A stretch of 64,000 nucleotides of DNA. Source: Candidatus Delongbacteria bacterium (GTDB taxonomy: Bacteria > UBA4055). The notes beneath the pieces are model-generated. The model was not told the DNA's origin, made no database searches, and worked only from the letters and a program-made list of their open reading frames with translations. Positions within the stretch are counted from its first letter, which is position 1. Every line of letters starts with the position of its first letter. Location: the NCBI GenBank assembly GCA_016937995.1, contig JAFGVM010000057.1, positions 1 through 64,000 of the forward strand, in the 5' to 3' direction. The translations under genes and the position numbers were made by a program. Below are positions 3,982-30,776 of this stretch, one piece after another.

Positions 3982-6018
3982 TTATAGTAAATCCTTGTAT
4001 TTTCGATACCCTAATTCTACTAAGAATATAAGCAGCATCAAAATGAAAAAGTATAAATTCCTTACAAGTTTAATTTTAGTATTTTCTGTAACGATCTTAG
4101 TCTTTCCGATCAAGCTATTGAAATAATCTTTTGCTTTAAAAATAGGTATCAATTTACCGTTTGATCTATCAGCAATATCCTGCATAAGGTCCATATTTGC
4201 ACCCAAAGAAGATAACTCCTGATCATTTTCAATTATTTTAAACTCTCTTTTCGTAAACATGAAAACTTTATTATCACGGATCATTGAAATATCAGCTGTG
4301 TACAGACCGGGTTCCATGATATTAACATTTGCGGAATACTTATCATTCTTAAATGAAAACTCAGATTCAGCTTTATTCTCAATAATTGTAAGTTTAACAG
4401 TTTCATTCTTCAAAGGTCTAAGATTGTCATCAAATATCTTTCCTTCAAAGTTTATTATTTCACCGCTTGAATATACAGACTTCTGAGGAGTTATCTTTAT
4501 CTGTTCAGAAGTTTTATCAATGGACAAATATTCGATAACATTAAGAAAGAATTTCTCAAGTTCTGAATTAACCCCGTCAAGATCAAATACATCAAAATTA
4601 TTCCAGAAATATCTCATGTTGACTAAAACAGTGTTCTTTTTTGTATCGATCGATCTGAAAGAAGAATGGGCAGAATTATTATCCAAAATATCTAAGATCG
4701 GGATAAAAGGTCTTTCGCCGGGTATGAAACCAGCATCGAATTCTATTGACGGAAGGTCATTTAAAGTTATGTGTTCATCATCATACATATAAAGAAAACT
4801 GTTCAGATCATTTTTATTATTTGACAGAAAACCTTTTTTGTAGACCGGTCTAAAATTGTTCAACGATAATCCCTCAAGTTCATTGAGTTTACTGCGTTCA
4901 GTTTTTTCTGTAATAAAAATAAGCTTAGAGTTGAATTTACCGATCATCTCATCAAGTTTAGGGTAAGTTCTTTTATCAGGATATGAATAAAGCAATATCA
5001 GATCAAAATTTTTATCACTGATCACAGAAGGATCATCAGCCGGATCAAATAGCTGATAACTGAAATTATGTTTTGAGAAAATATCCAGTATAAATTTAAG
5101 GTCCAGAGAAAGATTGCCATAAACGATCAGGATATTCTGTGCAAGATTCGAGATCTTTTGAAATATCTTTCTGGAATTATTGTACAGATTTTCTTCATTG
5201 TTAAGTTTGTTTATAGAAAATTCGATCGATTTAAAGTTCTGATCGTTAGAATTTAAGATCACTGGGATTCTTTTTAGAGATCCGTTTTCCGGAACATTCT
5301 CAATAATATTTTTAACAACTTTACCGTTTTCTTTAACAGAGAGCCGGAATTTATCTTCACTTGAAATACCGTTGATTCCAACGATTACCTCATAGCTGAT
5401 ATCTGAATTCTGTGGGATAATATCCTCGTAAGAAATGTCATTTATGAAAATATCGACCAGATCGGGTTTGCTTCTGGTGTGAATAAAGTTAATAGGCAGA
5501 GTGTTTGAAAGAGAATTATTACTGTAGTCCGTAAAATTACCGTCAGTTATCACTATGATATTCTCATACTGTTCATCTGGACTACCGTGTCTAAAGTGTT
5601 TAAGGTCCGATATTTTATCCACTTTGGTAAAATTATCAGTATTGTCAAATTCTGATATACCGTTCAGGGTCCTTGTACTGTCCCCGAATAAATAGCTTTG
5701 AAAAATATCATCCCTGGAGATATATTCAATCATTTGTTTTATTGAATCTGCTTCAGTCGAATCACTCCGGACTATTGAAATTGAGTTGTCAAAAAGCACG
5801 ATGTTCTTTGGTCTAATGGTCTTATCTGTTGATAATGTGAGTACAGGATCAAATAATAGTAAAAGTATTTGAAAAAGTAATAATGACCTTAAAAAGACCA
5901 TCACTCCAGTTCTTATTTTTTTTAATCCAGATCCTTTGTAATACCAGAGTGAAAAATATATGATCACAGGTATTGATAAGATCAAAAATATGCCGGGGAA
6001 ACGAAGATCGATATTCAT
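3982..6018 (-). CDS. Membrane protein with VWA-like domain
   Basis: The 678-residue protein has two N-terminal hydrophobic helices (about residues 9-27 and 38-61), a long extracytoplasmic part and one C-terminal helix (NLYFFILMLLIFLVELGY). After the second helix, IVLFDNSISI fits the DxSxS metal site of a von Willebrand A domain, and ENIIVITDGNFTD fits its TDG segment. This layout resembles BatA/BatB-type and related membrane VWA proteins of the FCB group, whose functions are poorly known. The middle (residues ~190-480) has beta-rich, Ig-like character and a gap where a Rossmann-like segment (ILIVYGNLSLDLKFILDIF) appears. The gene follows a bidirectional hairpin terminator and precedes radA. 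Confidence 0.6.
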   Translation of the reverse strand: MNIDLRFPGIFLILSIPVIIYFSLWYYKGSGLKKIRTGVMVFLRSLLLFQILLLLFDPVLTLSTDKTIRPKNIVLFDNSISIVRSDSTEADSIKQMIEYISRDDIFQSYLFGDSTRTLNGISEFDNTDNFTKVDKISDLKHFRHGSPDEQYENIIVITDGNFTDYSNNSLSNTLPINFIHTRSKPDLVDIFINDISYEDIIPQNSDISYEVIVGINGISSEDKFRLSVKENGKVVKNIIENVPENGSLKRIPVILNSNDQNFKSIEFSINKLNNEENLYNNSRKIFQKISNLAQNILIVYGNLSLDLKFILDIFSKHNFSYQLFDPADDPSVISDKNFDLILLYSYPDKRTYPKLDEMIGKFNSKLIFITEKTERSKLNELEGLSLNNFRPVYKKGFLSNNKNDLNSFLYMYDDEHITLNDLPSIEFDAGFIPGERPFIPILDILDNNSAHSSFRSIDTKKNTVLVNMRYFWNNFDVFDLDGVNSELEKFFLNVIEYLSIDKTSEQIKITPQKSVYSSGEIINFEGKIFDDNLRPLKNETVKLTIIENKAESEFSFKNDKYSANVNIMEPGLYTADISMIRDNKVFMFTKREFKIIENDQELSSLGANMDLMQDIADRSNGKLIPIFKAKDYFNSLIGKTKIVTENTKIKLVRNLYFFILMLLIFLVELGYRKYKDLL

Positions 6019-6089: not shown

Positions 6090-7400
6090 TTAATCAAGGT
6101 CAATTTTGGTATCCTCTTCAATATCATCTCCTTCTGTATTCAGTTCGGAGAAATCAAAACCGCTCTTAAGTAATTGTTTTTTTTGCAGAGGTTTATTTTC
6201 AGGTTCTTCAATGAGAATTTCTTCCGGTTCTTTTTCGGAATTTCCAAAATCGAGATCAAGGTCATCAAGAGGTTCCTGAACTTCCGGCTCGGGAGTAGTA
6301 ACTGGTTTTGTTTTTAACGTCTTAGTCTGTACTTCAGGCTTAACAGCTTTCTTTTCTGAAACTTCCTCTTTTCCATAAGGAGTTTCAAATTTGTCCAGAA
6401 GTACCATCATGATCTCTTCAATGACCTTGTCAATATTATTTCCTTTTGCCTCAACATTAACAATAGATGCAATATCCAGAAAGAAGGTTTCGTATTTTTC
6501 GTATAGACCGCCTTTTTTTCCTATGAATAGAAGTCCTAAGAGTATAAGGATCACCAAAGCCATTACTGCGATTATTATAATAGAAATAATTCCCATTCCG
6601 GAAGATGATTCTTCGGTCAGTCCATCAGCCTCGCTTACAATAAATTCATCAGAGTCATAACCGCTGTCGTCAGTTAAAGCAACTTCGGAACTGTCGTCGG
6701 GATCCTCCGTTTTATCAGCTAAAGCCGCTCCGGTTTCAAATCCGCTGGATTTTACAGTTATGAACAATTGATTGATCTTACTTTTTCCAACAGCTCTGTA
6801 AAGAGATATCTCTTTCTCAAAATTCTCACTTCTAACCAGTGAAATTTCTAAAGTATTAGTACCTTTTTTGAATTTCAGATCTGTGTCCGATAGTATCCCT
6901 ATAAGTTCACTGTCGTAGTCAGCATTGAATTTTCCTGAGTAATCTTTTATCGAGTTCAGATATACGATCTGTGACGGTTTGTCAGGAGACAGGTTTACAG
7001 CTGTGTATGTTGAAAAAAGTGTGTCATTCTCAACAATTTGAATTTCAGGAAGGTATTTAGCAGACAAATAGATCTTTTCAGTTTTACCGATATTTTTTTT
7101 AACGAAAGTAAAGCTGGTTTTATACAATTTATCTATTTCTTTGTCTTCATCATTAACCAGTCTGATGTCATAGATCAGTTCAATATTACCGGCATTATTT
7201 TTCTTAAGTACGAATGGTTTTTTTATCTCACTCTGGTATTCATATGTTTCATAATTCTTCAGTTCTAACTGAACTTTACCATACTCTCCGTCACCAAACT
7301 GGAAATTTCTTTTCTTGGAAAATTCCAGCTTCTGAATACTGAACAGCATTTGAGTCAGTATCAAAATCGAGACAAGGGAAAAAGATAATTTTTTGAACAT
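6090..7400 (-). CDS. Exported single-pass membrane protein of unknown function
   Basis: I do not recognise this family. The start at 7400 is chosen because GGAGGATGAA precedes it and it opens a signal peptide (MFKKLSFSLVSILILTQMLF); a longer frame to 7457 would overlap priA. Residues ~20-240 look beta-rich and extracytoplasmic. An acidic linker (ALTDDSGYDSDEF) leads to a transmembrane helix near residue 275 (GIISIIIIAVMALVILILLG). The last ~130 residues are a charged, low-complexity cytoplasmic tail rich in E, P and D that ends DIEEDTKIDLD. The gene directly follows priA and ends at a strong hairpin terminator. Its layout recalls BatD-type proteins, and the next gene is VWA-like, but the sequence itself gives no family signature. 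Confidence 0.7.
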   Translation of the reverse strand: MFKKLSFSLVSILILTQMLFSIQKLEFSKKRNFQFGDGEYGKVQLELKNYETYEYQSEIKKPFVLKKNNAGNIELIYDIRLVNDEDKEIDKLYKTSFTFVKKNIGKTEKIYLSAKYLPEIQIVENDTLFSTYTAVNLSPDKPSQIVYLNSIKDYSGKFNADYDSELIGILSDTDLKFKKGTNTLEISLVRSENFEKEISLYRAVGKSKINQLFITVKSSGFETGAALADKTEDPDDSSEVALTDDSGYDSDEFIVSEADGLTEESSSGMGIISIIIIAVMALVILILLGLLFIGKKGGLYEKYETFFLDIASIVNVEAKGNNIDKVIEEIMMVLLDKFETPYGKEEVSEKKAVKPEVQTKTLKTKPVTTPEPEVQEPLDDLDLDFGNSEKEPEEILIEEPENKPLQKKQLLKSGFDFSELNTEGDDIEEDTKIDLD

Positions 7401-7434
7401 TTCATCCTCCATAGGAATATTGTTTATTTTCGGT

Positions 7435-9843
7435 TCAGATGACCTCTGTGGGATCAATATCGACCGAAACCTTTACGTTCGACCTGGTTCTATAATTTTT
7501 TAAAGCGTTGTTAATTGCGGATCTGAGAATATTACCATTACTGTCGAGCTCTATGTCGGTTTTAATGATAATGTTCATCCGGTATATATTATTAACTTTT
7601 AATATCATCCTGTCAACAGGTTTATAAATTAATATTTTGTTATCCTCTTTTTTCAGTAATCTATAGAGTTCCATTGATGCTGTCTTTACTTCATTATGGT
7701 CCTTGGAAGAGAACATTATCTTCGCCATCTTGAAATACGGAGGATATCCTGCAAGCTTTCTATTTTCCAACTCATACTTAATGAAACCAATATAATCATG
7801 TTTTCTTGCAAATTCAAGCACATGATTCATTTCGTTGTAAGTCTGGATCAGCACCTGTCCCTTAATTTCACCTCTTCCGGCCCTGCCGGATACCTGAGTG
7901 ATCAGCTGAAAAGCTCTTTCATCAGACCTGAAATCAGGAAATATCAGTTCAGTATCAACATTTACGATACAAACCAGACTGACATTATGAAAATCAAGTC
8001 CTTTTGCTATCATCTGTGTTCCCACTAAGATCGATCTCTTAGTGTTCTCGAACTCATTTAAGATTTTAAAATGACTCTCTTTCTTTCTTGTGGAATCCTG
8101 ATCCATCCGTAATATTTTTATATCCGGGAACAACTTGCCCAGTTCAAAAGCAACCTGTTCTGTTCCAATACCCTTAAAAGATATATTAGATTTACCGCAA
8201 ATTCCACAATAATCTTTTGCTTTTTCATAGTATCCGCAATGATGACAGATCAGCTGTTTTGAATTTAAATGATAAGTCAGTGAAACAGAACAGTTCGGGC
8301 ATGAACTCACACTTCCGCAGGATTCACATATCAGATGTGTGGAATAACCTCTTCTGTTCTGAAGTACGATTATCTGCCGGTCGCTCATCAATTCCCTTCT
8401 AAATACTTCTATCACCGAATCTTCAAAAATATTATAGAACTGCTTTCTCTTTACGACCTTTATCTCGGGTAATTTGGATATGCCGATCCTTTTAGTTAAT
8501 TTGAGGAGAGAAAATTTATTTCTTTCAGCATTGAAAATTGATTCTATAGACGGTGTTGCTGATCCCAGAATGACCGGAATGTTATTCAACTTTCCTCTCA
8601 AAATAGCCATATCACGGGCATTGTATCTCGGGGAGGGATCGATCTGTTTATATGCACTCTCATGCTCTTCATCAACAATTATCAAACCCAGATCACTTAA
8701 AGGAGCAAAAATGGCCGATCTAGGACCGATAACGATCGGGTATTTATTATCTTTAATGCCTTTCCAGCTGTCATATTTTTCACCTTCCGACAACCTGCTG
8801 TGCAAAATTGCAATATCATTACTGAAGACCTCTCTGAATCTTTTCACAGTTTGAGGGGTCAATGATATTTCAGGTATCAGGACGATAACTGATCTGTTAT
8901 TTTTTCTCACTTTTTTTATAGCTTCAATGTATACTGCAGTTTTACCGCTACCGGTCAATCCGTATATTAAAAATGTTTGAAAGATATTCTCATCCAGGAC
9001 ATTGTTTATCTTTTCTACACACTCGTTCTGTTCGTCGGTCAGTAAAAATTCTTTGGGAGGATCAATTTTATCTGTAAGTTCGATGCTTAATCTGATATTT
9101 TCCTTCCTTACCTTATTACACAATCCCAGTGAAACGGATCTGTTTATTATATGGTCTGAAAAATTATACAGTTTACCTGCTTCTTTTTGTAGTATCCCCA
9201 TACCGTTTTGAGCAATAAAATCATAAAATTCATCGATCCTTTTGGTTGTCTTTACGTCCGGTTTTGGTATAACGGGTACAATAAAATTCAGATATTGAGC
9301 CTTATCAGGATGTTCCAAAGTATTAATGATATTAATGTATTCTCTTCTTACGAGCGAAGTAATGTTCTTATCGAAGTCAGGTGAATTGATATGATCAGAG
9401 AGCACACTGTACTTAGTCCGGAGTGATTTTTCCAGATACTCAATTATTCTGATTTGTTCAGAATTTAGATCAGACTTTTCTATGGGTCGATCTAAATTTA
9501 ATTCTACGAATTTTTTTCTGTTACCGTATAAAGCTGCAGGAAGGACCTGTTTTAGTACTTCACCGTATGAGGATAAATAATAATTTGAGATCCATTTGCA
9601 GAACACGAGCATTTCATTGTTGAAAACTGGAGTTTCATCCAAAACCGATTCGACAGTTGTGAGCTTATAATCAGGTTTTACCTCAACCAGGGATGTGATC
9701 ACACCGATCATTTTACGGTTATTAAAGTTAGCCTTAACCCTCCGTCCGATCAAAGTATCACTGACGGCTGCTGTTCTTACAGCGTAAGTGAATTCCTTAT
9801 CCAGAGGTATGGGGAATGAAATATTAACGTAGATATTATCGAT
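7435..9843 (-). CDS. priA: Primosomal helicase PriA, start codon not canonical
   Basis: PriA restarts stalled replication forks. The sequence shows Walker A GLTGSGKT, the DEEH box, helicase motifs (ILGSATPSIES, GTQMIAKGLDF, QVSGRAGRG) and the zinc-binding insert CESCGSVSSCPNC...CHHCG...CGICGK. The first ATG/GTG/TTG in frame is a TTG at 9753. The frame stays open upstream to a TGA at 9877-9879 and encodes YVNISFPIPLDKEFTYAV, which is the conserved PriA N-terminus (3'-end binding domain). No ATG, GTG or TTG exists in that extension. I place the start tentatively at ATC 9841-9843 (IDNIYVNISFP...), where family members usually begin; CTG at 9874 or an ATA/ATT codon are alternatives, as is a sequence error. 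The following gene starts 35 bases after the stop. Confidence 0.9.
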   Translation of the reverse strand: MDNIYVNISFPIPLDKEFTYAVRTAAVSDTLIGRRVKANFNNRKMIGVITSLVEVKPDYKLTTVESVLDETPVFNNEMLVFCKWISNYYLSSYGEVLKQVLPAALYGNRKKFVELNLDRPIEKSDLNSEQIRIIEYLEKSLRTKYSVLSDHINSPDFDKNITSLVRREYINIINTLEHPDKAQYLNFIVPVIPKPDVKTTKRIDEFYDFIAQNGMGILQKEAGKLYNFSDHIINRSVSLGLCNKVRKENIRLSIELTDKIDPPKEFLLTDEQNECVEKINNVLDENIFQTFLIYGLTGSGKTAVYIEAIKKVRKNNRSVIVLIPEISLTPQTVKRFREVFSNDIAILHSRLSEGEKYDSWKGIKDNKYPIVIGPRSAIFAPLSDLGLIIVDEEHESAYKQIDPSPRYNARDMAILRGKLNNIPVILGSATPSIESIFNAERNKFSLLKLTKRIGISKLPEIKVVKRKQFYNIFEDSVIEVFRRELMSDRQIIVLQNRRGYSTHLICESCGSVSSCPNCSVSLTYHLNSKQLICHHCGYYEKAKDYCGICGKSNISFKGIGTEQVAFELGKLFPDIKILRMDQDSTRKKESHFKILNEFENTKRSILVGTQMIAKGLDFHNVSLVCIVNVDTELIFPDFRSDERAFQLITQVSGRAGRGEIKGQVLIQTYNEMNHVLEFARKHDYIGFIKYELENRKLAGYPPYFKMAKIMFSSKDHNEVKTASMELYRLLKKEDNKILIYKPVDRMILKVNNIYRMNIIIKTDIELDSNGNILRSAINNALKNYRTRSNVKVSVDIDPTEVI

Positions 9844-10070: not shown

Positions 10071-12155
10071 ATGATGGCAGATAAGAATACATATACTTTC
10101 GGTTTATATGGAAGATGTCCGGTTTGTAAAGAGATCACTTCAGAAGCGTGTGATGGATGTGGTTCCAAAAACTCTTTTACTGATTCCAGTAAACAAGGGA
10201 TCGTGATCTGTACAAAATGCAAGATGGAACACAGCATTGAATGTGAAAAGAAGAGTTGCAATAAACAGATAAAAGTCTTAAAAACTCCTAAAAATGAAGA
10301 TGAAAGAAAGCGGATAGATGAATTTATTTACAGAAAGCAGCATAAAGACATGGACAAACGCCAATTTACTATCAAAGAATCTCCCAAAAAAACAATAGTC
10401 AAAGCAGTTCAGGTCCCTATCGAAGATAAAATTGAAAAATCAGGTATTATTAAACTGGATGAGGGAATGGAAGAGCTATTGGCTGGAACCAGGAAGAGTG
10501 TTCTTGAAAAAACTACCGTTGAACCTTTGTCTAAATCTGAGGATCTAAAACCTGATCAAAGTGCTGTTAATACCGGCTTCAAAAAGGATACTTTTATACA
10601 GGACGAAAGTTCTATAAGGGAAGAACCTGCTGATAAAGTAGAACCTGAAATAGAACCTGAACCGGTTCGGGATGATAAGAAACCACTGATCGATATTGAT
10701 AATAATGATGTTATAATGGATAAAGATTTTGAACATAAAGCCGTTGAAATAAAACCTAAAGTGTCTGAACCGATCGAGATCAAGAAAGAAGAGCCTGTTA
10801 AAGACATTCCTCTTGAAAAAGATCAGCTTGATGATAATCTTGAGGGTGAAATAAATTTAAATGTTTCAGCTACCGAATCAAAGGATGAGGAACTATCCTC
10901 TGAAGTCAAGCAGGAGCTTGATCTGATCAAAGATTACTGGTACAAAAAGGAATTGACTGAAAAAGAGGAGAAGAAGGAAGAAGAAAGAAGGATAGTCAAT
11001 CAATTCTATGATGAACAGGATGATACTGTTCTTGATAAAAAGATCAACTTTGAAAATGTGTACAATGAAACAAGTTATTTTGACTGTAAGGTCTGCGGAA
11101 GGGAAGAAAAAAAGATAACATGTGACCAATGTGGTCAAAGTAATCAGTTCTCGCTTAACTATGACGCACTTAGCTGTAAATGCGGTAATCAGGTAAAGGT
11201 TATGACCTGTGAGTGTGGAGCAAAGCACGGTCACAGTGATTTTTATCTTATCTCGGAAGGTATTAAATGGCAGTATTCAAAATCCAAAAGTTATTACAAC
11301 TACAGAAAAGGAAGACTGCTGGTATTTTCAACATGTCCGACCTGTAATGCTTTTTCAGTAGAAAAATGTAAGGTCTGCGGAAGTAAAGTGAATTTTGGTG
11401 CACCGAATAAGAACAATGAAGTATACTGTAAAAACTGTGGTACGGTAAATCAGTTCCTTTGTGAGAACAGGAATTGTGATAACTCTGTAAAATCGCTTAA
11501 AAACCCAAGTTCGATCGAAGAAAAGCTTGATCTTTTGAACGAAGTAATGAACTTCAAAACCAGAATAAATGAAAAGAAGGTTAAGTACACAGAACCGGGA
11601 GGAGATAAAAAAGTTGCAAGCTCATCTCAGGGTATTTCTATCGGGAATGTGTCATCTACTCCGGATTTCTCGAACTCATTCATAGAAGAGTTCGATTCTA
11701 AGACAAGGGATCTTATAACGAATTCATTTATAGAGGAAGTTGAAACTGAAGTTAAACAGAGAAAGAAAGTAGACGAAGAAGTAAAAACTTTCAACAGGGA
11801 TAACTTTGCTCCGAGAGCTCCGGGAATATCTCTTGGTGGAGCAAAACCTGAAGATGATGAGGAGCAGGAAAATGTAATTTCGTTCGATGATTCAGGAAAG
11901 GGGATAGGTTTTTATATCTTACTTGTGGTCATTGTTGCGGTAATTGCAGGCGGTGGATGGTGGGGATATAACAACTTCCTTAAAAAAGGACCTGATCCTG
12001 TAATTGAACCGAAACCAAAAGAAGTGTCCGTAGAAAAACCAATCGTTAAAGATATTCCGGCTGTTATTGATTCTACTACAGTTGTAGTAACAGATTCAAC
12101 AGCTGTAGTAGATTCGACTAAAATGGTTGACGGACATGTAGAAGATAAAAAATAG
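10071..12155 (+). CDS. Multi-zinc-ribbon protein with C-terminal membrane helix
   Basis: I do not recognise this family. The start at 10071 (ATGATG) follows GAGGGA by 5 bases; an upstream TTG lacks such a site. The N-terminal ~60 residues hold cysteine pairs (CPVCK, CDGCG, CTKCK, C..KSCNK). A long acidic, probably disordered linker rich in K, E, P and D (residues ~90-320) follows. A second cysteine block around residues 335-480 has CKVCG, CDQCG, CKCG, CECG, CPTCN, CKVCG, CKNCG and CENRNC. Near residue 615 is a single helix (GIGFYILLVVIVAVIAGGG), then a short E/P/V/D/T-rich tail. The two cysteine blocks look like repeats of one double zinc-ribbon module. Topology predicts the ribbons in the cytoplasm. 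There is no close partner gene. Confidence 0.7.
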   Translation: MMADKNTYTFGLYGRCPVCKEITSEACDGCGSKNSFTDSSKQGIVICTKCKMEHSIECEKKSCNKQIKVLKTPKNEDERKRIDEFIYRKQHKDMDKRQFTIKESPKKTIVKAVQVPIEDKIEKSGIIKLDEGMEELLAGTRKSVLEKTTVEPLSKSEDLKPDQSAVNTGFKKDTFIQDESSIREEPADKVEPEIEPEPVRDDKKPLIDIDNNDVIMDKDFEHKAVEIKPKVSEPIEIKKEEPVKDIPLEKDQLDDNLEGEINLNVSATESKDEELSSEVKQELDLIKDYWYKKELTEKEEKKEEERRIVNQFYDEQDDTVLDKKINFENVYNETSYFDCKVCGREEKKITCDQCGQSNQFSLNYDALSCKCGNQVKVMTCECGAKHGHSDFYLISEGIKWQYSKSKSYYNYRKGRLLVFSTCPTCNAFSVEKCKVCGSKVNFGAPNKNNEVYCKNCGTVNQFLCENRNCDNSVKSLKNPSSIEEKLDLLNEVMNFKTRINEKKVKYTEPGGDKKVASSSQGISIGNVSSTPDFSNSFIEEFDSKTRDLITNSFIEEVETEVKQRKKVDEEVKTFNRDNFAPRAPGISLGGAKPEDDEEQENVISFDDSGKGIGFYILLVVIVAVIAGGGWWGYNNFLKKGPDPVIEPKPKEVSVEKPIVKDIPAVIDSTTVVVTDSTAVVDSTKMVDGHVEDKK

Positions 12156-12229: not shown

Positions 12230-12787
12230 ATGAAAAAGATCAAATTAGTTCTATTGGTATGTTTACTCTTTGTAGCATCAATGGTAAATGCTGATACTTA
12301 CGGAAAGCAGAATTCTTTCGGACTTAATCCGTTTGGTTTATTGTTCAACATCTATTCCGGTGAATATGGAAGATTCATGGATGCTGCCGGTACAACAGAA
12401 ATAAATGTACCTTTCTACTTCTTCAGCTATGAAGATTTTACTGCATTAGGATTAGGTGCTAAGTACAGGATGTATAAAGACGGAAACGGAGAAGGTGTAT
12501 TCTACGGTGGTGGATTGACTATTGATTCATGGACTTGGGAAGATATTTATTGGTACGATTCAGTATCAATGACATGGAAAACAGAGGATACAACTTGGTT
12601 AACAATTACTCCTTTAGGTGAATTAGGATACAGATGGTCTTGGCCAAATGGATGGACTATTGCACCTTCATTAGAGTTAGGATTTGCAGTTTCTACCTTT
12701 GATGGAAATGATGACTGGGGTGATTTGGATTATGGTGCTCAAGGTTTGCATTGGGGTCTTAATTTAGGGGTTGCTTACATGTTCTAA
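12230..12787 (+). CDS. Small predicted outer-membrane beta-barrel protein
   Basis: The protein has a clear signal peptide (MKKIKLVLLVCLLFVASMVNA) and then short alternating hydrophobic/aromatic strands with many Gly, Trp and Tyr. It ends LGVAYMF: a terminal aromatic residue is the usual barrel-assembly signal. At 185 residues it would form an 8-strand barrel, as OmpW- or OmpX-sized proteins do. The start follows AGGAGGAAAA. A strong terminator follows 17 bases after the stop. Similar-sized barrels lie at 59959-60588 and 61828-62370. The specific function is unknown. Confidence 0.75.
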   Translation: MKKIKLVLLVCLLFVASMVNADTYGKQNSFGLNPFGLLFNIYSGEYGRFMDAAGTTEINVPFYFFSYEDFTALGLGAKYRMYKDGNGEGVFYGGGLTIDSWTWEDIYWYDSVSMTWKTEDTTWLTITPLGELGYRWSWPNGWTIAPSLELGFAVSTFDGNDDWGDLDYGAQGLHWGLNLGVAYMF

Positions 12788-12803: not shown

Positions 12804-12833
12804 AAAGCCGGAATTTATATCCGGCTTTTTTTT
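12804..12833 (+). terminator. Rho-independent terminator
   Basis: A 9-bp stem AAAGCCGGA/TCCGGCTTT (12804-12812 with 12820-12828) is followed by an uninterrupted T run. It ends the small barrel gene. Confidence 0.9.
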
Positions 12834-12855: not shown

Positions 12856-13098
12856 ATGAAAAGGATAATAGCAATAATCTGTATACTGTTGATCATTGTT
12901 TCGTGTACTCAAGTCAAAGAAAAGAAAGCTGTAACTACTACAACTAAAAAAGATGCAGTCAAAGTTGAGAAGAATGCTGCACAGCAATTTGTGGATACTC
13001 AAAAAAGTTACATAGATAAAACAAAAGAAAAAGTTGAAAAAAATCAAAAAGCACAGGATGATCAGAAAAAAGAACTGGATAACATTATGGGCAAATAG
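12856..13098 (+). CDS. Small lysine-rich lipoprotein
   Basis: The 80-residue product begins MKRIIAIICILLIIVSCTQ, a type II signal peptide with Cys17 as the likely lipid anchor (IIVSC lipobox). The mature part is almost entirely charged (K, E, D, Q) and predicted helical (KSYIDKTKEKVEKNQKAQDD), like a short coiled coil. It could be a periplasmic spacer or peptidoglycan-associated lipoprotein, but no family is recognised. It ends 2 bases before the convergent pyk stop. Confidence 0.7.
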   Translation: MKRIIAIICILLIIVSCTQVKEKKAVTTTTKKDAVKVEKNAAQQFVDTQKSYIDKTKEKVEKNQKAQDDQKKELDNIMGK

Positions 13099-29999: not shown

Positions 30000-30262
30000 T
30001 GTTCGGTAAGAAGGTTCAGAAGAGAGAGTTCGGTTATAGACCGGTTCATTCTGACATGACAAAGAATGACACACCTTTAAGAGAGAGGATAAAGTTCACA
30101 ACTTTCTCCTCTCAGGATAAAAGAAGCTCTAAAAGAAGGACCATAATACTGATCCTGTTTTTAATTTTGATTATTGCTGTGATCGTTAATTTCGGGATAT
30201 CAACCCTGTCGATAGAAGAAATAAAGATCAAGGAAACAGAATTTGAGAAGATTACCCCCTAA
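29999..30262 (+). CDS. Small single-pass membrane protein
   Basis: This 87-residue protein starts MFGKKVQKREFGYRPVHSD, then a basic region (KRSSKRRTIILIL) and a single helix of about 20 residues (IILILFLILIIAVIVNFGI), with a short charged end. FGKK...REFGYRPV resembles a small FCB-group family with a conserved aromatic N-terminus and a membrane helix, function unknown. It overlaps the aminotransferase stop by 1 base and the next gene by 20 bases, so the three form one operon. Confidence 0.6.
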   Translation: MFGKKVQKREFGYRPVHSDMTKNDTPLRERIKFTTFSSQDKRSSKRRTIILILFLILIIAVIVNFGISTLSIEEIKIKETEFEKITP

Positions 30263-30776
30263 TACACTTAGCATAATTGATGAATATTTTACTTTTTTCG
30301 ATTCAACAAATGCCAAGATAGATAAGATTGTTAAAAAGCACGAAAAAAATCTGTCATGCAAAAAGGGATGTACTTATTGCTGCATGAATATTTCTGTTCT
30401 GCCGATAGAGTTTTATGCAATTGGAAAAATGATCCTGAAGGCGAAAAAACAAATAACTGTGAACAGGCATAAAAGGTGTGCATTTCTGCAGGATAATCTT
30501 TGTATGATATATAAATACAGACCTATCATATGCAGAACCCACGGACTACCTTTATCACATAGGGACAGCCATGATCCAGGAAGGGTAAATGTTTCAATTT
30601 GTGAAATGAACTTTGTTGATAAAATACCGAAATTTAATCTGGATAATACTCTTGACATGGATGAAATAAATTTAAAACTGTATAGATTAAATGAGAAGTT
30701 CATATCGAAATTTAAGACCAGAATGTCAGCAAGGATACCTCTGGTTAAAGTTGCTGCTTACGTAAAAGGTAGATGA
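30243..30776 (+). CDS. YkgJ-family cysteine-cluster protein
   Basis: The 177-residue product carries CKKGCTYCC near residue 40, then CAFLQDNLCMIYKYRPIICR, the two cysteine groups of the YkgJ/UPF0153 family, thought to bind a metal or Fe-S centre. It is longer than the copy at 979-1302, with an extra helical C-terminus. The frame begins with TTG at 30243 inside the previous gene; there is no ATG before the conserved part. AAGGAAACAG lies a few bases upstream, so TTG is the likely true start and translation is probably coupled. Confidence 0.8.
   Translation: MRRLPPNTLSIIDEYFTFFDSTNAKIDKIVKKHEKNLSCKKGCTYCCMNISVLPIEFYAIGKMILKAKKQITVNRHKRCAFLQDNLCMIYKYRPIICRTHGLPLSHRDSHDPGRVNVSICEMNFVDKIPKFNLDNTLDMDEINLKLYRLNEKFISKFKTRMSARIPLVKVAAYVKGR

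Follow-up and report, generated by a model that had tools for sequence, protein, structure and literature searches.

Modular anatomy of the zinc-ribbon protein

The gene described here occupies positions 10074 to 12155 (+) of the window, the 64,000-nucleotide stretch of Candidatus Delongbacteria DNA that was analysed, and encodes a 693-residue membrane protein with 24 cysteines and a single transmembrane helix. Cysteine makes up 3.4% of this zinc-ribbon protein, compared with 1.1% for the open reading frames of the window. There are two candidate start codons, ATG 10074 (MADKNTY...) and ATG 10071, which lies one codon earlier and would add one Met; the former is preferred because the N-termini of the orthologs fall at the equivalent position. 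A Shine-Dalgarno-like AGAGG is found immediately upstream of the start. The cysteines are all confined to three modules of eight. Module N spans residues 15-62 (cysteines 15, 18, 26, 29, 46, 49, 57, and 62; 10116 to 10259 (+)) and is defined by alignment and an AlphaFold model in which its pLDDT is about 83. Module 2A spans residues 338-381 (cysteines 338, 341, 350, 353, 368, 370, 379, and 381; 11085 to 11216 (+)), has a distinct spacing, and is modeled with a pLDDT of about 70-87. Module 2B spans residues 421-468 (cysteines 421, 424, 432, 435, 452, 455, 463, and 468; 11334 to 11477 (+)). The CxxC motifs listed in an initial annotation of this DNA are all present in the open reading frame; the two cysteine-rich blocks that it described are really these three modules, the ligands C57, C62, C463, and C468 having been overlooked.

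Judged by their sequence profiles, modules N and 2B are duplicates of each other. Both follow the spacing C-x2-C-x7-C-x2-C-x16-C-x2-C-x7-C-x4-C without deviation, and their profiles align over 67 columns with an E value of 1e-14. This alignment scores 73.3; when the cysteines were fixed and the other columns shuffled, 60 such controls reached no more than 45.2. Module 2A is spaced C-x2-C-x8-C-x2-C-x14-C-x-C-x8-C-x-C and scores 22.5 against N, where the shuffled controls reach 23.0, and 26.0 against 2B, where they reach 24.8, so that a shared origin with either is not demonstrated. The earlier proposal that the blocks are duplicates of one module therefore stands for N and 2B but not for 2A. 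Each module is likely to hold two zinc ions, as predicted from its eight cysteines, and weak Foldseek matches suggest that the pairing may be nested (Cys pairs 1-4 and 2-3), the arrangement of PriA. A structure model of 2A and 2B together reached moderate confidence (pLDDT 71.6, pTM 0.44), and for this reason its fold matches are left out of the argument. The modules differ in charge: 2B is basic (+3 to +6), N weakly so, and 2A ranges from neutral to acidic.

About 200 residues of acidic linker (10374 to 10970 (+)) join modules N and 2A. This stretch bears out the charged linker noted previously and is predicted to be disordered; in the AlphaFold model, linkers and tail are unstructured. Across orthologs, the cysteines of N and 2A are separated by 135-307 residues while the cysteines themselves and their spacing are kept, which argues for folded metal modules on a tether. 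The same picture is seen in dN/dS between two genomes of the window genus (G001 and G002), which is 0.029 for module N, 0.024 for 2A and 2B together, and 0.043 for the helical segment, compared with 0.21 for the linker. For most other pairs, synonymous sites are saturated, but the nonsynonymous distances repeat the contrast between modules and linker. Three further segments stand out in the ortholog alignment. The first, RRIVNQFYDEQxD..LDKKINFENxYNET, precedes module 2A (10986 to 11072 (+)). The second, the basic aromatic segment IKWQYSKSKSYYNYRKGRLL (11259 to 11324 (+)), separates module 2A from 2B; it carries a net charge of +4 to +6, is 91-100% identical within the main clade, and lies in a region where beta strands are predicted by the structure model. 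The third is a conserved helix ahead of the membrane (11664 to 11798 (+)), also predicted by AlphaFold, which holds two copies of the motif NSFIEE at a distance of 16 residues (SNSFIEEF and TNSFIEEV). This repeat could serve as a docking motif.

Membrane helix, tail, and lipoprotein

The transmembrane helix is made up of residues 610-628 (11901 to 11957 (+)), with a 19-residue Kyte-Doolittle mean of 2.39, and one dominant hydrophobic peak is present in all 11 orthologs. An N-terminal signal was found in none of them. The protein had been described as ending in one helix; the single hydrophobic helix is there, but it is followed by a tail of about 60-65 further residues (11979 to 12152 (+)). 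The charges flanking the helix are mixed on both sides, and the positive-inside rule alone is thus a weak guide to orientation. A better one is provided by a nearby gene for an 80-residue predicted lipoprotein with the lipobox IVSC (12856 to 13098 (+)). In genera g2, g4, and g5, the ortholog tails (NAAQxYIDAQKxNIxxAKxAVEK...) are homologous to this lipoprotein, which is a separate gene in the window genus, g1. The alignment between tails and lipoprotein is clear, and a profile made from the large protein, with lipoproteins left out, detects the lipoprotein in G001 and G002 in whole-genome searches (E values of 3e-5 and 4e-5). Searches with the lipoprotein give strong matches solely to these tails and lipoproteins. 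Lipoproteins are exported, and from the homology we infer that the tail is periplasmic and the zinc modules cytoplasmic. Indirect support is thereby given to the earlier placement of the protein on the cytoplasmic side of the inner membrane, through the tails of some genera.

Conservation of the tail is low, and several genera lack its helical segment. On a tree of the conserved part of the protein, the segment is fused in G005, G011, G003, G006, and G010, separate in G000 to G002, and missing both in the deep clade formed by G004 and G007 and in G008, which groups with G000 to G002 with moderate support (82/80). This pattern would fit one gain of the tail followed by one loss from the large protein, the lipoprotein being the separated copy. 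Tail segment and lipoprotein are both absent in g3, g6, and g7, so they are not essential to function. Between the zinc-ribbon gene and the lipoprotein gene of the window lies a gene for a predicted secreted protein, possibly an outer-membrane barrel (12230 to 12787 (+)), which has no Pfam match and is kept within the genus only. A terminator-like hairpin of 9 pairs followed by a T run (12804-12828) stands between this gene and the lipoprotein gene.

Distribution and gene neighborhood

Of the 13 genomes searched in one Delongbacteria family, 11 have an ortholog, counting the genome of the window; the two that lack one are 86 and 90% complete. The records of this family are named Candidatus Delongbacteria or UBP11, with one labeled Cloacimonadota. 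Conservation of the cysteines, on which the initial annotation had staked its reading, is complete, as all 24 are aligned in each ortholog that covers them. The gene is single-copy, and neither paralogs nor stray zinc modules were found in the family. A profile search of 290 genomes returned no ortholog outside the family, the outside matches being partial and weak (E above 1e-4). In a scan of about 85,000 species genomes, the reach of which was relatives sharing two conserved peptides, all 9 confirmed loci fell within the Delongbacteria lineage. The search for phage relatives gave no match, and a phage origin was rejected on this basis.

In genera g1, g4, g5, and g7, the zinc-ribbon gene is divergent from priA, beyond which lie two unannotated membrane proteins and then radA; fmt, aspS, and an exbB/tonB-type set are found on the other side. 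In the window, the two predicted membrane proteins between radA and priA are encoded at 3982-6018 (-) and 6090-7457 (-), in the order common to these four genera, and neither belongs to a Pfam or NCBIfam family. In G004 and G007, the zinc-ribbon gene is at another location, away from priA. There it overlaps the start of a downstream XerC/D-like tyrosine recombinase gene (G007 L037:9836-12266 and G004 L038:7794-10248), and the overlap suggests translational coupling in this deep clade. No constant co-directional neighbor or operon partner was seen across genera, and for want of such constancy an operon-based assignment of function was set aside. Elsewhere in the window, 30243-30776 encodes a 177-residue protein with 8 cysteines that matches PF03692, the CxxCxxCC zinc- or iron-chelating family.

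Relation to known families and proposed role

No model in Pfam, NCBIfam, or PHROG reaches its cut-off for the zinc-ribbon protein, and searches of the PDB by sequence and by fold (Foldseek) gave nothing significant. The protein thus matches no known family, as had been suspected, and constitutes a new one. The remark that no family with this plan is known goes too far, since other proteins are known in which a zinc ribbon is followed by a linker, one transmembrane helix, and a periplasmic part; the plan seen here varies that layout and is not unprecedented. The closest example is ZitP of Caulobacter crescentus, a bitopic protein whose cytoplasmic zinc ribbon binds PopZ directly and whose periplasmic domain has a separate job (PMC5182065, PMC5182063). 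Like ZitP, which resides in the inner membrane, the protein is predicted from its sequence to have a cytoplasmic N-terminal zinc region, a flexible stretch, one transmembrane helix (found in all members), and a periplasmic C-terminal part, with the orientation taken from the tail-lipoprotein homology. ZitP is made up of zinc_ribbon_5 (PF13719), a transmembrane helix, and DUF3426, and has one four-cysteine ribbon of about 40 residues in 311, whereas the protein described here has three eight-cysteine modules in 693. PF13719 was not found in the protein by Pfam scan, nor in G000, G005, or G007 at an E value of 0.1, under conditions in which Caulobacter, the control, was positive. DUF3426 was absent from all 11 members in a Pfam scan, and PopZ (PF10691) was absent from G000 and G007, with only a 13-bit trace in G005. 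Membership of the ZitP/zinc_ribbon_5 family was rejected on these three counts. AgmX/GltJ, a gliding-motility protein of Myxococcus xanthus, has an N-terminal zinc finger and has been compared with ZitP (PMC5182063), but this is one short finger, as opposed to three eight-cysteine modules without a zinc_ribbon_5 match.

Two other resemblances are fainter. The cysteine-rich region of PriA (PF18319) has four Cys pairs within about 45 residues, which make up two zinc sites. Foldseek ranks PriA chains near the top when queried with the full model (E 0.15, probability about 0.8) but not when queried with the 2A-2B model, which places the resemblance probably in module N. PriA is, however, a soluble helicase; there is no Pfam match to PF18319, and hhalign against PriA of the same genomes gave a probability of 5-14%. 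Among Pfam models, only the TFIIB zinc ribbon (PF08271) recurs, in 10 of the 11 members (best E 0.0005), and it stays below the gathering threshold, at 18.9 bits against a cut-off of 29. Its spacing, C-x2-C-x16-C-x2-C, is shared by the inner four cysteines of module 2B; unlike the TFIIB ribbon, 2B adds an outer set of two cysteine pairs, and the protein is not a transcription factor.

It is proposed that the protein acts as a membrane-anchored, multivalent docking platform, bitopic with a cytoplasmic N-terminus and periplasmic C-terminus, a reading that we hold with even confidence for and against. The mechanism would most likely be a larger, multivalent version of the ZitP kind, outside the ZitP family. 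The three cytoplasmic zinc modules, carried on a long acidic flexible tether, would dock at least one cytoplasmic partner, most likely a protein, and keep it at the inner membrane, while the transmembrane helix and periplasmic tail would attach the assembly to the envelope. In some genera this tie would be made by the fused helical tail; in the window genus, it may involve the separate lipoprotein that carries the same segment, which could interact with the tail. A point against a docking platform is that the gene neighbors are functionally inconsistent, with priA and radA on one side in most genera and a tyrosine recombinase in two.

Alternatively, the protein may be a membrane tether for nucleic acid, which its zinc modules and basic aromatic segment would bind, keeping RNA, the chromosome, or the replication machinery at the inner membrane; this alternative is rather unlikely. 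IKWQYSKSKSYYNYRKGRLL, strongly basic and nearly invariant, is the best argument for it and suits nucleic-acid binding as well as protein docking; the basic module 2B, the subthreshold TFIIB trace, and the neighboring priA and radA, or the recombinase in two genera, point the same way. However, module N has little positive charge and 2A has none, and the linkers are acidic; protein binding is common among zinc ribbons, the link to neighbors differs between clades, and priA is divergently transcribed. Of the two kinds of cargo that the initial annotation had suggested, nucleic acids or proteins, the precedent of ZitP (PMC5182065) favors proteins. It is a good deal less probable that the protein is a cytoplasmic metal or redox sensor, in which zinc loss or cysteine oxidation would alter the modules and pass a signal to the periplasmic tail. 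Its 24 cysteines, possibly six metal sites, and transmembrane helix with a periplasmic tail would be in keeping with this, but the protein is without an output domain, the tail is poorly conserved and in several genera lacks its helical segment, and the ligands are spaced as in structural zinc sites. That the gene arose as a local duplicate of the PriA cysteine-rich region, fused to a membrane anchor, is highly improbable: PriA ranks among the best structural matches, also has four Cys pairs of similar spacing, and adjoins the gene in most genera, but the structural match is weak, the comparison with same-genome PriA is not significant, and in G004 and G007 the two genes are apart.

A bolder reading makes the protein a Delongbacteria-specific organizer that spans the inner membrane and connects an assembly in the cytoplasm (the chromosome or the machinery of replication or division) with the outer envelope, by way of a tail that one genus has separated into a lipoprotein; this version is speculative and we think it unlikely. 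The gene is single-copy and evolves slowly, it is carried by most searched genomes of a whole uncultured lineage, and it turned up nowhere else; these traits make it a candidate for a lineage-defining cell function. Its duplicated eight-cysteine zinc module is missing from the searched family libraries and could be added to them as a new domain, and the splitting of the tail into a lipoprotein opens a natural way into what the system does in the periplasm.
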